NCBI GenBank assembly: GCA_016205125.1
Contig: JACQJE010000165.1
Location: 1-14,365, forward strand
Length of the DNA stretch: 14,365 nucleotides
DNA from: Deltaproteobacteria bacterium
GTDB lineage: Bacteria > Bdellovibrionota > O2-12-FULL-43-9 > JACQJE01
Reading direction: 5' to 3'
The notes under the pieces are model-generated. The model was not told the DNA's origin. It did no database searches and saw nothing but the letters and a program-made list of their open reading frames with translations. The position numbers and the translations under genes were made by a program. Shown here piece after piece: positions 3,062-9,416 of this stretch; the stretch's first letter is position 1; the number at the start of each line of letters is the position of its first letter.

Positions 3062-5587
3062 TTATTTTTTTTCTGCCATCTCATAAGAGATGATCACATC
3101 TCCCTCTTTGAGATCCTTGAAGTTTTCGATGGCAATCCCGCATTCGTAGCCTTCGGCCACTTCCCGGACATCTTCTTTAAATCTCTTGACAGAAGAAAGC
3201 TTCCCTTCGAATACGACCTCATCGCCGCGCATCAGACGAACGAGACTTCCACGCTTTATCTTCCCTTCAAGCACCATAGATCCAGCAATAGTACCTACCT
3301 TGCTGACATGGAAAAGAGAACGAACTTCTGCCCGACCGAGAATCTGCTCTTCAAATTTGGGCTCCAGCATTCCTTCCAGCGCTTTTTGCACCTCTTCCAC
3401 CGCCTCATAGATGATGGAATAGGTTTTAATATCAACGCCCTGACGTTCCGCCGCTTCCTTTGCTTTGGTATCAACGCCCACATGGAACCCAATAACAACT
3501 CCTTCTGAGGCTGCTGCCAGATTGACATCGTTCTCATTGATCACGCCGACACCGGAGTGAATGACATTGACGTGAATATCTTCTTTTTGGCATTTTCGAA
3601 GCGATTCCCGAAGCGCTTCGATCGATCCCTGAACATCTCCCTTGAGGATGAGTTTGAGCTCTTTCCTGCCCTCTGCTTCCACCTGCTCAAAGAAATTCTC
3701 GAGTGTCACCTTTGTTCTCTCTTCAACGGATTCCGCCTTCTGTTGGAGCAAGCGGAGATCGGCAACCTCCTTTGCAATCTCCTCATTCTTGACGGCGTAG
3801 AGAAGAGAGCCCGCTTGAGGAACATCGGACAAACCGAGAATCTCGACCGGCATACTCAAAAACGCCTCCCGCACTGGATTTCCATGATCATCCATCATGG
3901 CTCTCACTTTGCCAGTGCAGGTTCCGCAAACAATGATGTCTCCTGTTTTCAATGTCCCTTCCTGAATCAGGATATCAGCCACCGGACCACGCCCGCGATC
4001 GATCCTCGCCTCCAGCACAATCCCTTTCGCAGGAAGCGTGGAGTCCCCTTTAAGCTCAAGCATTTCTGCCTGAAGCGCAATCAGTTCCAGAAGTTCGGGA
4101 ATTCCTGTCCCCTTCAGGGCAGAAACAGGGGCCATGATCGTATTGCCTCCCCAATCTTCGGCAATCACTCCATGGCTTGAAAGCTCCTGTTTAACTCGAT
4201 CTGGCGCCGCCTGAGGTTTATCAATTTTATTGATCGCCACAATAATGGGGACATTGGCTGCTTTGGCGTGATCAATCGCTTCCACTGTCTGGGGCATGAC
4301 GCCATCATCGGCCGCAACCACTAAGATCACAATGTCGGTACACTTTGCTCCTCTGGCCCGCATGGCCGTAAATGCTTCGTGACCGGGTGTGTCAATAAAC
4401 GTGATGACATCCTTTCCAACTGAGATCTGATAGGCCCCGATATGCTGAGTAATTCCTCCCGCCTCACCCGCCGCAACGCGAGTCTTCCGAATGTAATCGA
4501 GAAGCGATGTTTTGCCATGATCGACATGTCCCATCACCGTCACGACAGGCGGCCTTTTGATCCGATGCTCAGCTTTTGATTCTGGCCGCTTCAAAAGATC
4601 CGCTTCCTGAATGACAATATTTTGAATTTCATATTGGTAATCGTGCGCAACCAAAGAGGCGGCATCTGCATCAATGGTGTCGTTGAGCGTCGCCACTATT
4701 CCGAGATTCATCAACTTTTTCAGAATCTCTCCCGCCTTTACGCCGAGTTCAATCGCGAGATCGCGCACCATGATGGTGCCCTGCATCCTGATGATCCGCT
4801 TGCTCGCCTTCGGAATCGTAATCTCGGTCTTTCTGGGCGGGCGGGTCATCACGGTCGGCGCTTTTTTGGCGGGAATATAGACAATCTTTTCGCTCGGGAG
4901 GACCGGCTCTTCCCCCTCTTCAGGCACAACCACAACCGGCTCTTCCCGCTCATCACGTTTTGCACGGCGCCTGAGCGGGGTCTTCTTCGCAAGTTCATCC
5001 TTTTCCCGCTCAATAAGCTCCTGCAGCTCTTTTGCAGTTTTCTTCCGAACTAAAGTGACTCTCTTCGGCTCCCCTTTTCCAGCCTCCTCTCGCGGTTTGA
5101 CCTGTTCGATCATCTCTTCAATCGAAATCGCCGTCTTCTTCTGCGGCTCACTGACCCTGCCACGCGGCTCGGCTGGCGCCTCCTCCTTTTTTGAAGAGAT
5201 TTCCTCTTCCTCTGAGGGGAGATCTACCCCCCTTTCCTCTTCAATTTTCTGAATCGCGCTCTGAATGGCCCCTTCCACCTCTGCTTCAGCTTCGGACAGC
5301 ATGCGGCGGCGGCGGCGGATAATGGTCGGCTGAACGCGCTGCTCTTCAACAGCAACGCTCCCCTCCTCTCTCTGTTCGATGCGGGTGCGGATCGTCTGGT
5401 CCCGTTTCGATTTTACTTCAATCTCCGCTGTCATTCTCTTCTGCACGGCATCGATCTGCTCCGAAGAAAGCGCTGCCATGTGAGTGGTGATCTTAAAACC
5501 ACACTCCTGCAGTTTGGCAAGGAGCTCTTTAGAGCTCAGATTGAGCTGTTTTGCGAATTCGTAAACTTTAACTTTCTTAGAACTCAT
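3062..5587 (-). CDS. infB: Translation initiation factor IF-2
   Basis: IF2 is the GTPase that brings fMet-tRNA to the 30S subunit and drives subunit joining. I start it at the ATG at 5587 (841 residues), because a perfect AAGGAGGT lies 6 nt upstream and the protein then opens [20 protein letters not shown], a classic IF2 N-terminal domain. A longer in-frame reading from 5641 would run through the palindrome and is rejected. Then come a charged Arg/Glu/Lys linker (about 60-250) and a second IF2_N-like segment (about 270-330). The G domain carries G1 GHVDHGKT (353-360), G3 DTPGH (399-403), G4 NKID (453-456) and G5 SAL (489-491). The remainder is the usual IF2 domain II/III/C region. The stop codon touches the rbfA start. 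The start region is locked in a palindrome (5578-5761). Confidence 0.97.
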
Positions 5588-5761
5588 TTCATAACCTCCT
5601 TCGTTACGAGGCTGAGTGAAAAGCAAGCAGTCGAGGTACAAAGGGTCAAAATATTCGGAGACGTACTCCCTGTAGTACGTCGAGGATATTTTGACCCTGA
5701 GTACGAAGAGTGCTTGCTTTGCAACCAGCCGCAGTAGAAGGAGGTTATGAAATGAGTTCTA
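5578..5761. repeat. 184-bp palindrome filling the nusA-infB gap
   Basis: The outer arms 5578-5602 and 5737-5761 are perfect reverse complements over 25 bp. Inside, 5620-5629 pairs with 5711-5720 (10 bp). 5642-5656 pairs with 5684-5698 (15 bp, one wobble). GACGTACT (5660-5667) pairs with AGTACGTC (5674-5681) around a 6-nt loop centred near 5670. Segments between these stems pair partially (TAC/GTA, GGCT/AGCC). In operon mRNA the 5' arm begins exactly with the nusA stop codon, and the 3' arm holds the infB Shine-Dalgarno, start codon and codons 2-3. The middle stem is more diverged than the outer arms. No flanking direct repeat is visible. It could be an inverted duplication, a palindromic mobile element or a regulatory hairpin. 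Confidence 0.9.
5585..5602 (-). promoter_or_regulatory. infB ribosome-binding site sequestered in the palindrome stem
   Basis: On the minus strand AAGGAGGT (5601-5594) lies 6 nt before the ATG (5587-5585). The complementary ACCTCCTT sits in the other arm (as AACCTCCTTC, 5746-5737 on the minus strand), just after the nusA stop. Full pairing would hide both the ribosome site and the start codon. A ribosome terminating on nusA would cover the base of this stem, which suggests translational coupling; that is inference. Confidence 0.6.
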
Positions 5762-7108
5762 TTCATTCTTCTCCTCAACCTGCTCTTCACTCACCGACGC
5801 AGAGGCATCTGCTTTCTCGCTCTCAGGTGTGGATTCCTCAGCTCTTGTACTCTCTGGCTCCCCTATTTCCGCCTTCTTTGTGAGCGCTTCTTGAGCGGCC
5901 TGATGGATAAGCGATCCCTTTTCCTCTCCAATACCCGCTACTTTACTCAGCTGTTCCGGATTGGCCCGCACCACATCATCAATTGTAAAATAGTTGTTCT
6001 GGTAAAGCGCCATGGCAATGGTGTCTCCCACGCCCTCGATGCTCTTGAGCTCAGCAATGGCCTTCTGTCTCCGCGCAGTCACTTCCGTTTCTCCAGCAAT
6101 ATCGAGCTTCCAGCCTGTCAATTTGGATGCGAGACGGACGTTCTGCCCTCTCCTGCCAATCGCGAGCGAGAGTTGATCATCCGCAACGACCACTTCCATA
6201 CTCTTCATTTCTTTATTGATCTTTACACTGGAAATCTGCGCAGGCGCCAACGCACTGGAAACAAACGTGGCTGGATCAGCAGACCAGGGAACAATATCGA
6301 TCTTCTCCCCCTTGAGTTCATTGACAATGCTCTGCACGCGAGAACCTTTCATTCCGACGCAAGCCCCTACTGGATCGACATTGCTCTCCTTCGAAGTCAC
6401 AGCGATCTTGGCTCTTGCCCCCGGCTCCCGCGCTGCTGTCTGAATAGAGACAATCCCGTCGCTGATCTCCGGAACCTCCATCTCGAAGAGTTTCACGACA
6501 TACTCTGTGCAAGCCCGCGAGAGAATAATCTGAGGGCCATAGGAAGTTTCCACAACGTCTAAAAGATAAGCCTGGACTCGGTCATTAACTCGAAATTGCT
6601 CTCCGGGAATCATTTCTCTCAGTGGAAGTCTCGCTTCGGTACGCCCTAAATCGATGACCAAAGAGCCCCGCTCAATCCGGCGGGCAATGCCGGTGATAAT
6701 CTCTCCTTTCCTTCCAACATAGTCTCCAAAAATAATCGAATGTTCAGCCTCCCGCACTTTCTGAATAATCACCTGCTTCGCTGCTTGCGCCGCAATCCGG
6801 CCAAAACTAGCCGCGTCGAGTTTCACACCCAGACTGTCTCCCTCTGTTGTTTCCGGATCGAGTTTGTGCGCTTCTTCTACGGTGATCTCCAGGGCAGGAT
6901 CCGTTACCTCTTTCACAACCGTCTTGAACTGAAAGAGCTCAATTTCTCCCATTTCTTCGTTATAATGCGCTTCGAGTTCTGCCTCCAGCCCATACTTCTT
7001 ATGTGCAGCGGCCTCCACAGCACTTTCGAGGGCTTCGATCACTATGCTCTTATCGATTCCCTTTTCGCGACCTACCTGTTCAATGATTCTCGCTAGTTCC
7101 GGCAACAT
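5759..7108 (-). CDS. nusA: Transcription termination/antitermination factor NusA
   Basis: NusA binds RNA polymerase and nascent RNA and modulates pausing, intrinsic termination and antitermination. The 449-residue protein has the N-terminal polymerase-binding domain (about 1-125, with EALESAVEAAAHKKYG), an S1 domain (about 130-200) and KH1 with the conserved VDPVGACVGMKGSRVQ. KH2 follows with LSLAIGRRGQNVRLASKLTG, then one helix-hairpin-helix-like C-terminal repeat (about 350-410, LKSIEGVGDTIAMALYQNNY). The final 40 or so residues are a Glu/Ser-rich acidic tail of low complexity. ATG at 7108 has AAGGAG about 9 nt upstream. It follows rimP by 50 bp, and its stop codon TAG is the first triplet of the palindrome arm shared with the infB start. 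No ylxR/rpl7Ae-like gene is present between nusA and infB. Confidence 0.97.
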   Translation of the reverse strand: MLPELARIIEQVGREKGIDKSIVIEALESAVEAAAHKKYGLEAELEAHYNEEMGEIELFQFKTVVKEVTDPALEITVEEAHKLDPETTEGDSLGVKLDAASFGRIAAQAAKQVIIQKVREAEHSIIFGDYVGRKGEIITGIARRIERGSLVIDLGRTEARLPLREMIPGEQFRVNDRVQAYLLDVVETSYGPQIILSRACTEYVVKLFEMEVPEISDGIVSIQTAAREPGARAKIAVTSKESNVDPVGACVGMKGSRVQSIVNELKGEKIDIVPWSADPATFVSSALAPAQISSVKINKEMKSMEVVVADDQLSLAIGRRGQNVRLASKLTGWKLDIAGETEVTARRQKAIAELKSIEGVGDTIAMALYQNNYFTIDDVVRANPEQLSKVAGIGEEKGSLIHQAAQEALTKKAEIGEPESTRAEESTPESEKADASASVSEEQVEEKNE

Positions 7109-7158
7109 TCATTCCTTCTCCTTCTTAAATAGACTCCCCTGAAAATAGCGCGATCTTC

Positions 7159-7659
7159 TTAGATCTCTATTTCTAGTTTTGCCTTGTCAATTAAATCAAT
7201 AGGAATAGTAAATAAACCATCCTCACATTCCAACGTGACATTTTCCTCTGCGGCCCCTTTGATCACTCCCAGAAAATTCCTGCGGTGATCCGGACTGTTT
7301 GATGCGAGAGGAGCCTTGGTTGTCACTCTCACCTTTTTTCCAGAAAATCTCAAAAAATCCTTAGACGTTTTAAGGGGCCTGTCTAAACCCGGCGAAGAAA
7401 CTTCTAACACATACTCATGACTAATCAAATCTTCCACATCGAGCAGGACACTCAATTCGCGGCTCAGCCTGGCACATTCATCGAGTGTCACTCCTCTGCC
7501 GATGATCTCAGCGCGGTCGACAAAAAGGCGCAAAACCCACCCTCTCCGCTCTTTTCGGTATGTCACCTCAGCAAGTTCCAGACCCGCACTCTCAATCACG
7601 GGGACGAAGACTCGATAAACAAAATCGATGACTCGCTCTTGCTCATATCCTGATGACAA
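7159..7659 (-). CDS. rimP: Ribosome maturation factor RimP
   Basis: RimP assists early 30S assembly. The 166-residue protein matches in length and motifs: an N-terminal alpha/beta domain with ESAGLELAEVTYRKERRGWVLRLFVD-type sequence (about 20-50), the GVTLDECARLSRELSVLLD helix, and the signature YVLEVSSPGLDRPLK (about 103-117). A small C-terminal beta domain (VTLECEDGLFTIPIDLIDKAKLEIE) ends the protein. The start is TTG at 7659, supported by GGAGG 7 nt upstream; the nearby GTG and ATG are out of frame. It heads the nusA-infB operon and is preceded at about 34 nt by an intrinsic terminator, suggesting attenuation. Confidence 0.95.
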   Translation of the reverse strand: MSSGYEQERVIDFVYRVFVPVIESAGLELAEVTYRKERRGWVLRLFVDRAEIIGRGVTLDECARLSRELSVLLDVEDLISHEYVLEVSSPGLDRPLKTSKDFLRFSGKKVRVTTKAPLASNSPDHRRNFLGVIKGAAEENVTLECEDGLFTIPIDLIDKAKLEIEI

Positions 7660-7692
7660 TCACGTTCCTCCAGTCAAAATCCCCAGCCAGCC

Positions 7693-7720
7693 AAAAAAAA
7701 GCGGGCTTTCTGGGCCCGCT
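7693..7720 (-). terminator. Intrinsic terminator in the rimP leader (putative attenuator)
   Basis: On the minus strand AGCGGGC (7720-7714) pairs with GCCCGCT (7706-7700) around a 7-nt loop and runs straight into a U-tract of about eight (7700-7693). It sits 34 nt before the rimP start and before its GGAGG. Upstream on this strand is only about 240 bp with no gene, so the natural targets are transcripts of the rimP operon itself. Attenuation is inference; termination of an unseen small RNA is the alternative. Confidence 0.75.
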
Positions 7721-7958
7721 GACAACAGAATCCCATATGATTTCTCTGCATTCGTAACAGTTTTTCCTCCCAAAATCAAGCGCCGTTTAACCCCCCACGG
7801 GACCCTGTAACCCCCAACGCTATTCAATGCTATTGGATCTAAAAAATCTTCTTGTTTCGAGAGGTTACAAATTCTTTATCTTTTTCGGAAATCTTCCGAT
7901 GAAAAAGGGGAACGATCAACGCAATTGAACCAACCCAATTGAACAAAGGAGAGCGGCT
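7721..7958. other. Divergent intergenic/leader region
   Basis: This segment separates rimP (leftward) from the gene at 7959 (rightward), so it should hold the promoters of both. I see C-tracts (TTTAACCCCCC and GTAACCCCC), a short perfect hairpin TCGGAA-atc-TTCCGA (7885-7899) and a 9-bp direct repeat CAATTGAAC at 7922-7930 and 7936-7944. No tRNA or recognisable riboswitch is apparent, and I cannot pick a convincing promoter for the rimP operon. Confidence 0.5.
7852..7880 (+). promoter_or_regulatory. Weak candidate sigma-70 promoter for the gene at 7959
   Basis: TTGTTT (7852-7857) and TTTATC (7875-7880) are separated by 17 nt and point toward the gene at 7959. The -10 matches consensus only partly, so this is a tentative call. 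The TCGGAA/TTCCGA hairpin would lie near the start of the transcript. Confidence 0.22.
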
Positions 7959-8297
7959 GTGCGAATCGAATTTACAGAAGAGCTGCAATCAACGCGTCAT
8001 TTCGATCATTTAAACGAGCGTTCAACCTATATCGTACATCTAAAATTTGATTCCGGAATTCCTCTTCATCTCTATTACAAACCTGAAAATATGTTCTATG
8101 CTGTCATCCCTGACAATGACAAAAAAATCCTTCGCCTCTATCGCATTCACTTCAACGAACCGGACGAGTTGGAGAGTTTTCGAAAATTTTTCTTCCAGGA
8201 GGATCTCAACCTTCTGAGCGATCCTGCAAAAAAACAGTTTGAATCCCTTGTCCAGGGAAAATTGATCGGCTTAGAGAGACCAGCAACCCCTCGGTAG
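7959..8297 (+). CDS. Hypothetical small cytosolic protein
   Basis: This is a 112-residue protein that I do not recognise. It has no signal peptide, membrane segment or cysteine. The N-terminal half alternates hydrophobic and charged residues in a strand-like way (STYIVHLKFDSGIPLHLYY, then MFYAVIPDNDKKILRLYRIHF). The C-terminal third looks helical and charged (DELESFRKFFFQEDLNLL to FESLVQGKL), so a small alpha+beta fold is plausible. The start is GTG with AAAGGAGAG upstream at normal spacing, which supports genuine translation. It is divergent from the rimP operon and convergent with pyrD. The stop TAG ends one base before the left arm of the large inverted repeat at 8298. Confidence 0.75.
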   Translation: MRIEFTEELQSTRHFDHLNERSTYIVHLKFDSGIPLHLYYKPENMFYAVIPDNDKKILRLYRIHFNEPDELESFRKFFFQEDLNLLSDPAKKQFESLVQGKLIGLERPATPR

Positions 8298-8504
8298 AGG
8301 GTCCCGTCAAACTCATGACAGGGTGGCATGGGGATCTCTCGTAAAGGGGCTATGGAGCCGCCCAAGAACTTAGCAAATGATAGCTGGGCGGCGGAATGCA
8401 GCGCGGACTTAGGGAACAAAAGTGGCCTATATGATCAAGGTCGTGTCCGCGCGTCCCTTGAGAGAGATCCCCATGCCACCCTGTCATGAGTTTGACGGGA
8501 CCCT
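8298..8504. repeat. 207-bp inverted-repeat element with perfect 43-bp arms and two internal hairpins
   Basis: 8298-8340 and 8462-8504 are exact reverse complements (43 of 43), starting AGGGTCCCGTC and ending GGATCTCTC. Pairing continues weakly inward (342-348 with 454-460). The interior carries two further hairpins: GCCGCCCA (8357-8364) with TGGGCGGC (8385-8392), and GCGCGGAC (8401-8408) with GTCCGCGC (8445-8452). The second encloses GGCCT/AGGTC. A single strand would fold as a three-way junction. The right arm encodes the last six residues and stop of pyrD; the left arm begins right after the stop of the gene at 7959. No T-tract follows, so it is not a simple intrinsic terminator. A palindromic, MITE-like non-autonomous element is plausible. 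Confidence 0.9.
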
Positions 8505-9416
8505 GCCCAAGCCTACAACCTCAGCGAGACTGGAATATGGAGATTTTTCCAGCCATTGACGGAGAGACGAAACGATTTCCAAACCTGCAGCTGGATTCAC
8601 AAAATGAACGGTTCCAATCTGAACAGCGCAGGCACCTGCCATGAGATATTCGACTGCATCTTCGGCGCCCATCACCCCGCCCGATGCGACAATCGGTATC
8701 TTGACTCTCTCTGCAATTTTCCAGACATGATATAGGGTGAGGGGTTTGATGGCCGGTCCTGACAATCCCCCCGTGATATTCGCCAACAGCGGCCTTTTTC
8801 TTTCGATGTCAATCGCCAGAGCAGGATACGTATTCGCAACTGTCAAGGCAGACGCGCCTCCTTCTTCAGCCGCGCGCGCGACATCGACAGCGATTCCATA
8901 ATAAGGAGCTAATTTCACCCACACAGGAAATGACGTCACTTTGCACACCGCCTCAACAATCTTTCGCACCGCTTTGGGATCGGATGCAAATTCCAGCCCC
9001 CCCGCTTCGACATTCGGGCATGAAATGTTGAGCTCAAAGCCGGCGATTCCCTCGCACTCTGACAGACGTTTCGCCAGAAGGGGAAAGTCTTTCACTCTCT
9101 GTCCGAAAAGGTTGATCAGAACAGGTGCACCTAAGGATTCAAACAACGGCACTTTATCCCTGATAAAAGCTTCCAGACCGGGGTTCTGCAAACCGATCGC
9201 GTTGAGCATCCCGGCAGTCGTTTCACAAATGCGCGGGGTCTCATTTCCTGTCATCGGCTCGACAGACACCCCTTTGACAATCACAGCGCCCAGCTCGCCC
9301 GGAGGGTAATAATCTTTGTATTCCAGTCCGTAGCCAAAGGTCCCTGAAGCCGCAATAATTGGATTTTTCAGTTCGAGGGATCCTACTTTAACCGAGAGCG
9401 ATTTGACGTCACTCAT
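8484..9416 (-). CDS. pyrD: Dihydroorotate dehydrogenase B (NAD+), catalytic subunit PyrD
   Basis: This is the FMN-containing TIM-barrel subunit that oxidises dihydroorotate to orotate in UMP synthesis. The 310-residue protein has ASGTFGYG (23-30), NAIGLQNPG (72-80) and the catalytic-loop motif ELNISCPNV, with Cys133 as catalytic base, the residue typical of class 1B rather than class 2 enzymes. It also has NTYPALAIDI, TGGLSGPAIKP (215-225) and the FMN phosphate loops GGVMGAEDA and AVQIGT. It pairs with PyrK, encoded immediately upstream with a 4-nt ATGA overlap. The final residues RVPSNS and the stop lie inside the arm of the 207-bp inverted repeat, so the natural C-terminus may have been replaced by that element. 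Confidence 0.95.
   Translation of the reverse strand: MSDVKSLSVKVGSLELKNPIIAASGTFGYGLEYKDYYPPGELGAVIVKGVSVEPMTGNETPRICETTAGMLNAIGLQNPGLEAFIRDKVPLFESLGAPVLINLFGQRVKDFPLLAKRLSECEGIAGFELNISCPNVEAGGLEFASDPKAVRKIVEAVCKVTSFPVWVKLAPYYGIAVDVARAAEEGGASALTVANTYPALAIDIERKRPLLANITGGLSGPAIKPLTLYHVWKIAERVKIPIVASGGVMGAEDAVEYLMAGACAVQIGTVHFVNPAAGLEIVSSLRQWLEKSPYSSLAEVVGLGRVPSNS

Follow-up and report, generated by a model that had tools for sequence, protein, structure and literature searches.

Correia elements (CREE), known from Neisseria, duplicate a TA and occur in internally deleted size classes. They are described as short and non-autonomous, with inverted ends and a hairpin in the host mRNA, and RNase III cleavage of Correia-bearing mRNA has been reported (PMC10969869). 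The routes of action named in that 2024 review of prokaryotic MITEs are IHF sites, RNase cleavage, gene disruption and sRNAs, with promoters appearing in a cited title; a term search of the review's text gave zero occurrences of 'start codon' and zero of 'ribosom' (PMC10969869). Rickettsia palindromic elements (RPE), of about 150 bp, are compatible with coding sequence (PMC10969869). BOX, RUP and SPRITE of pneumococcus and MITEAba12 are short repeats able to supply stop or start codons; MITEAba12 has start codons near its ends, the BOX-encoded ORFs tested were without good Shine-Dalgarno candidates, and the relevant parts of these papers describe no recurrent replacement of conserved gene starts (PMC3049150, PMC6382973). 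In integrons, ORF-11 of attI1 is a leader ORF with its own Shine-Dalgarno that couples translation to the downstream gene, and short ORFs in attC are said to keep stem-loops from forming (PMC8876359). In the mitochondria of Magnusiomyces, inserts in genes are neutralised at translation (PMC5009743).

The palindrome at the nusA-infB junction of a deltaproteobacterial contig (the window, that is, the whole stretch of 14,365 nt analysed) shares some features with each of these systems. It is very probably a copy of a short non-autonomous MITE-like element whose ends replace gene starts; we refer to its copies as family A. Unlike Correia elements, family A has ends that carry a Shine-Dalgarno and a start codon and replace gene starts. 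An RPE is fused in frame with the host ORF (PMC10969869), whereas the family A insert is 2 mod 3 in length and the gene would restart at the element ATG. Integrons are a site-specific cassette system and family A is a dispersed repeat that replaces the starts of resident genes; by analogy, integron ORF-11 is its nearest functional parallel. Ribosomes skip the insert in Magnusiomyces (PMC5009743), whereas the anatomy of family A suggests a stop and a restart. Searches of open-access papers turned up no such start-carrying element. Judged by its anatomy, we call family A a MITE, the new feature being ends with a Shine-Dalgarno and start codon that would replace gene starts.

The palindrome itself, described in an earlier note as joining the nusA stop to the infB start, proved real (Table 1; the mRNA of nusA and infB corresponds to the minus strand). 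Its 25-nt outer arms are 100% complementary and its 45-nt inner arms 80%. The predicted RNA fold of the 184 nt (plus strand) has an energy of -114.2 kcal/mol compared with a shuffle mean of -44.1 (z -16.7), and 0 of 200 shuffles were equally stable. The nusA stop coincides exactly with the arm end at the base of the stem; the closing (3') arm contains the Shine-Dalgarno and ATG of infB. When the gene-sense mRNA was folded with 80 and 60 nt of flank, the 3' arm paired with a probability of 0.98-1.0 (0.73 for its last base), so the proposal that the fold would block infB translation holds as far as the predicted pairing of the start signals goes. The Shine-Dalgarno region was still partly paired in a fold omitting the first 40 nt of the element, and full opening would therefore need translation further in. 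An Rfam search of window positions 5000-9000 with E up to 5 gave a single match, at 7168-7234 (E 4, under its gathering score).

Table 1. Features of the nusA-infB junction, given as positions within the window
Feature	Positions	Strand	Remarks
infB	3062..5587	-	TIGR00487, E 8.3e-246
nusA	5759..7108	-	TIGR01953, E 5.4e-121
Family A copy with flanking TA duplications	5578..5761		element proper 5580-5759; insert length 182 = element plus one TA
Target-site duplication TA, infB side (putative)	5578..5579		collapse to one TA gives back an in-frame infB start
Target-site duplication TA, nusA side (putative)	5760..5761
Outer arms	5578..5602 and 5737..5761
Inner arms	5610..5654 and 5686..5730
Terminal inverted repeat in use	5580..5602	-	reads GAAGGAGGTTATGAAATGAGTTC; source of the infB Shine-Dalgarno and start
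Element-borne Shine-Dalgarno AAGGAGG	5595..5601	-	7 nt ahead of ATG
infB start codon inside the element	5585..5587	-
Leader ORF	5584..5766	-	pre-insertion infB ATG 5766-5764; 60 codons; TGA 5586-5584 overlaps the new ATG (ATGA)
nusA stop TAG	5759..5761	-	its TA is target sequence, its G belongs to the element
Mirror terminal inverted repeat	5737..5759	+	outward Shine-Dalgarno and ATG, antisense to nusA; frame of only 43 codons
Palindromic core, 134 bp	5603..5736		related to cores of sister families with other ends

The assembly to which the window belongs (1.36 Mb, 219 contigs, 78% complete) was searched with the 184 bp. This gave 27 matching stretches on both strands, the window copy included, among them another two full-length copies, with 90% and 88% identity. 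The 23-bp end pattern, with up to three mismatches, was found at 14 sites on ten contigs, and the reversed pattern at none. Family A thus comprises ten loci, on contigs C98 (nusA-infB), C32, C102, C183, C167, C70, C113, C3, C46 and C190. Complete copies measure 97-184 bp including both TAs (100 bp at C183, 97 bp at C167). C46 has one family A end followed by a sister family, and C190 (stretch L021) a lone end without core at 49-71, between a tRNA-Ser gene (78-167) and the contig end. This last end lies six bases from the tRNA-Ser gene and may be a remnant, a footprint or the origin of the family A end. The contigs C70, C113 and C3 end inside the element, which would suit an assembly artefact, but any two of the three full copies differ at 19-22 of 184 positions, and their flanks are unrelated. 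The earlier note had considered a recent local inverted duplication or a chimeric second arm; the arms turned out to be the terminal inverted repeats of a dispersed family, and we regard either origin as having almost no likelihood.

Compensatory changes, which the note had proposed to look for, are present in part, and between the three dispersed copies: among 74 base pairs, 60 are invariant, four vary on one side, six are changed on both sides, and four are broken in at least one copy. The changes on both sides fit upkeep of the hairpin, and templated correction between the arms of the palindrome could give the same pattern. These six pairs, together with the stable hairpin over the infB start and the nusA stop at the stem base, would favour the dedicated switch that the note had envisaged, one evolved at nusA-infB and tying IF2 output to NusA translation. 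The layout also fits coupling from nusA to infB, in that the nusA stop overlaps the old infB start and the leader ends in ATGA on the new one. The same element, however, stands before other, unrelated genes. Among 58 other genomes, one belonging to the same class and the others from elsewhere in the phylum, G012 alone matched, by 47 nt of the inner core. The junction is also short in most relatives measured: of 29 infB loci inspected, the nusA-infB gap was measurable in 19, and it spans -4 to 36 nt in 17 of these and 72 and 230 nt in the other two. The part of the coupling claim that required a dedicated switch was rejected on the dispersal of the 184-bp repeat through the genome, and we consider that explanation very improbable; a secondary regulatory use of the element at infB may exist.

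As a candidate MITE, family A is short, dispersed over ten loci and bounded by 23-bp terminal inverted repeats. The target-site duplication is TA by frame logic at four loci, and AA in a comparison of nuoM/nuoL contigs in which one may be a paralogue; as regards an IS630/Tc1-mariner origin, TA at the four collapsed loci stands beside AA at one other. At 184 bp at most, the element is too short for a transposase of its own. No autonomous partner with matching ends was found in the 78% complete assembly, where the 14 end sites show no longer element; accepted MITEs commonly lack a known autonomous partner. For an IS630 transposase, PF13358 had no match in this genome and NF033545 matched only a 40-position stretch that contains a stop and falls under the cut-off. 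No IS630 helper above the cut-off was found in this assembly.

The same genome holds many other palindromic elements with a related core and different ends, such as GAATTCTGTTTCCGGATGAGAACTA and GATTGTCATTTCCGGATGAACACTA. Their ends share the final ATG and CT(A) of family A, and the Shine-Dalgarno is absent. Nesting or chaining of these sister families is common, truncated cores lying beside full ones (stretches L071, L073, L075-L077, L079, L085 and L096), a pattern suggestive of repeated insertion into elements or of recombination between them. With a sister-family query, four of 290 genomes of the phylum matched, the genome itself included (two candidates per genome scored); the six loci inspected in the other three are, by eye, hairpins whose ends differ and lack the Shine-Dalgarno and ATG. 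In these hairpins (G012, G055 and G104; L159-L164) the inner core is common and the ends are quite different, a conserved centre with variable termini being the reverse of what is expected of a transposon. The family A pattern had one match in a wider collection of genome contigs, which may omit the window's own and very near genomes: a single Erysipelotrichia site, set aside as by eye an ordinary gene start. A scan of viral contigs with the pattern gave no match. Within the window, a second multicopy palindrome with a different core and ends lies at 8298-8504 (50-nt arms, 94%). It has six further near-complete copies at 85-90% besides partial ones, and pyrD takes its last six codons and stop (RVPSNS*) from the end of this palindrome. 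A tandem pair of 71-bp repeats, 83% alike, occupies 36-177, just before a small ORF (180-482) whose product looks secreted by eye.

Read outward, the inverted repeat of family A consists of AAGGAGG, a 7-nt spacer, ATG, AGT and TC, and it is present at both ends; each end supplies the codons ATG AGT TC-T A. At six loci the element ATG is followed in frame by a gene, namely infB (C98, its product confirmed as InfB by the NCBIfam profile), a family 2 glycosyltransferase gene (C32), sdhA (C113), a ManC-like guanylyltransferase gene (C3), a cdsA-like cytidylyltransferase gene (C183) and a TPM-domain gene (C167). Counted from this ATG, the Pfam match begins at residue 6 in the glycosyltransferase, 10 in SdhA, 10 in the ManC-like protein and 11 in the CdsA-like protein; in the TPM protein it begins at residue 34, after what is by eye a hydrophobic N-terminus. 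Between the preceding stop and the new ATG, the alternative in-frame starts are TTG or GTG only, except at C167, where an ATG lies four codons upstream. Start replacement would change the N-terminus of infB from MNKK... to MSSKK.... The gene product appears to be kept with a few first residues altered, and we infer that the element ATG would be the start used in the cell.

When the insert is collapsed to one TA, an in-frame ATG appears just upstream at all four loci that have both flanks and a replaced start. The collapsed sites read ATGAA-TA-AG (infB), ATGAAAAC-TA-AA, ATGGAAAA-TA-AC and ATGTT-TA-GA, with the insertion 5, 8, 8 and 5 nt behind the A of ATG, and the restored N-terminus of infB resembles the InfB starts of relatives such as MSTKLKVYELAKE. 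The InfB N-termini of these relatives are in turn like that of Bdellovibrio. With 182, 98 and 95 nt, every insert has a length of 2 mod 3, and the element is phased such that its own ATG continues the frame of the gene. A further case comes from the upstream half at C70, where a nuoL-like gene and its stop are followed by ATGGTGAC-AA-GAACTC. A search for nuoM led to contig C124, which lacks the insert and reads ATGGTGACAAATCAC (MVTNHIL). The two contigs share 54 identical nt, differ at several positions around the nuoL stop, and are identical again over the last 18 nt to the insertion point; the duplication here is AA, 8 nt after the A of ATG, which restores the phase. We read C124 as a natural empty site, for which strain polymorphism would be the simplest cause; a paralogue is possible because C25 carries another nuoL/nuoM-like set. 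Two such sets are present in the assembly (L166/L168 on C25, L165 on C124, L004/L167 on C70). That C70 and C113 are the halves of one sdh insertion was ruled out, C70 translating as nuoL-like. The multicopy state, the mobile anatomy, the replaced starts, the frame rule and one apparently insert-free counterpart are shown by the sequence.

Seven of the ten loci are at a gene start (the six replaced starts and C70 on the nuoL side), with only the downstream side seen at C113 and C3 and only the upstream side at C70. The other three lie away from a replaced start: the element at C102 stops 51 nt short of glpK, that at C46 29 nt short of an ORF that is by eye a metal P-type ATPase, and the lone end at C190 16 nt short of an ATG with only ten codons on the contig. 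One explanation for this distribution is an ordinary, untargeted MITE, whose copies at start sites alone were retained since their ends by chance look like a ribosome-binding site. Most insertions elsewhere are lost to purifying selection, and an in-frame phase would be needed for survival in essential genes, both of which agree with such a history. Against it, 144 kb of sequence contain 799 non-coding TAs and 13 start-site TAs, or about 60 tolerated non-coding TAs for each suitable start TA, yet seven of ten loci are at starts. Six loci have both flanks (C98, C32, C183, C167, C102 and C46, the last with one family A end only), and four of them at start sites would be expected by chance at about 1e-6, a rough, order-of-magnitude figure that assumes that only non-coding TAs and start sites are tolerated and that rests on simple ORF calling in 55 non-redundant stretches of 128 (the 144 kb), element loci included, with the offsets 5 and 8 picked after seeing the loci.

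The sister families provide a control for this explanation. At least 200 codons are open from the ATG of the end in 5 of 12 family A ends compared with 0 of 38 sister-family ends, where the longest such frame has 81 codons; these 50 ends exclude C113 and one C167 end, and some of the 38 lie directly against a nested element or a contig end and so have poorer odds of a long frame. The Shine-Dalgarno end and location at gene starts therefore go together, and the lack of long frames after ends without a Shine-Dalgarno counts against untargeted insertion, which we nevertheless consider quite possible, if short of probable.

How the gene downstream would be translated through so stable a hairpin is suggested by the leader frames. 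At infB (60 codons) and at the C32 glycosyltransferase gene (61 codons), the leader read from the old ATG stops exactly at the new start, in an ATGA overlap, an arrangement in which termination-reinitiation is known (PMC6728339). We infer termination-reinitiation through the hairpin: the old start would be translated as a leader through the element, and the ribosome doing so would open the hairpin and reach the overlapping or nearby new start. Against this, leaders end early at C183 (14 nt before the new ATG) and C167 (8 nt before it), the ManC-like copy at C3 has an in-frame TAG near the contig end, and the old start of the C32 glycosyltransferase gene is without an evident Shine-Dalgarno. 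In shuffled sequences an open leader frame arises by chance in 2-14%, and the right-end frame of C98 and C102 contains one late TAG. Among right ends that face a gene, this position is CAG in two of three (C32 and C113) and TAG in C183, and the right ends of C98, C102 and C167, which are unused, have the TAG, numbers too small to be read as a pattern. Selection on the sequence of the leader peptide was also considered and is unsupported, as the codon differences between copies are mostly nonsynonymous (44 versus 5 synonymous in one frame and 41 versus 11 in the other).

The leader may instead be irrelevant, if the hairpin is cut by a nuclease such as RNase III or if translation of the mRNA precedes closure of the hairpin. 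In favour of this are the long duplex that the element forms, the RNase III processing reported for Correia elements (PMC10969869), and a leader that is not conserved as a protein and stops early in some copies. RNase III cleavage is a serious rival for the coupling step. Standing against a MITE that does without leader coupling, all three size classes of insert leave the same remainder modulo 3, and at infB and the glycosyltransferase gene the leader frame in use runs exactly to ATGA; we hold this alternative to be possible and somewhat doubtful. Returning to termination-reinitiation, the broadest reading, which we put forward tentatively, is of a selfish element that would target translation-initiation regions and neutralise itself by a built-in stop and restart, moving ribosome-binding sites and adding a leader-coupled hairpin to each gene. 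Its supposed target would be a Shine-Dalgarno, an ATG and a dinucleotide 5-8 nt on, much like the element's own end, in which the ATG lies 8 nt before the TA. Such an element would be a bacterial, translation-level counterpart of intron-generating transposons.

These results suggest that mobile DNA could live in operons, even in infB, by bringing a replacement translation start rather than by avoiding genes. If this is true, transposition would rewrite start codons, ribosome-binding sites and N-terminal residues, and the annotation of start sites in such genomes would be partly element-derived. The ends of family A would then constitute a natural, portable start module that works from either end.
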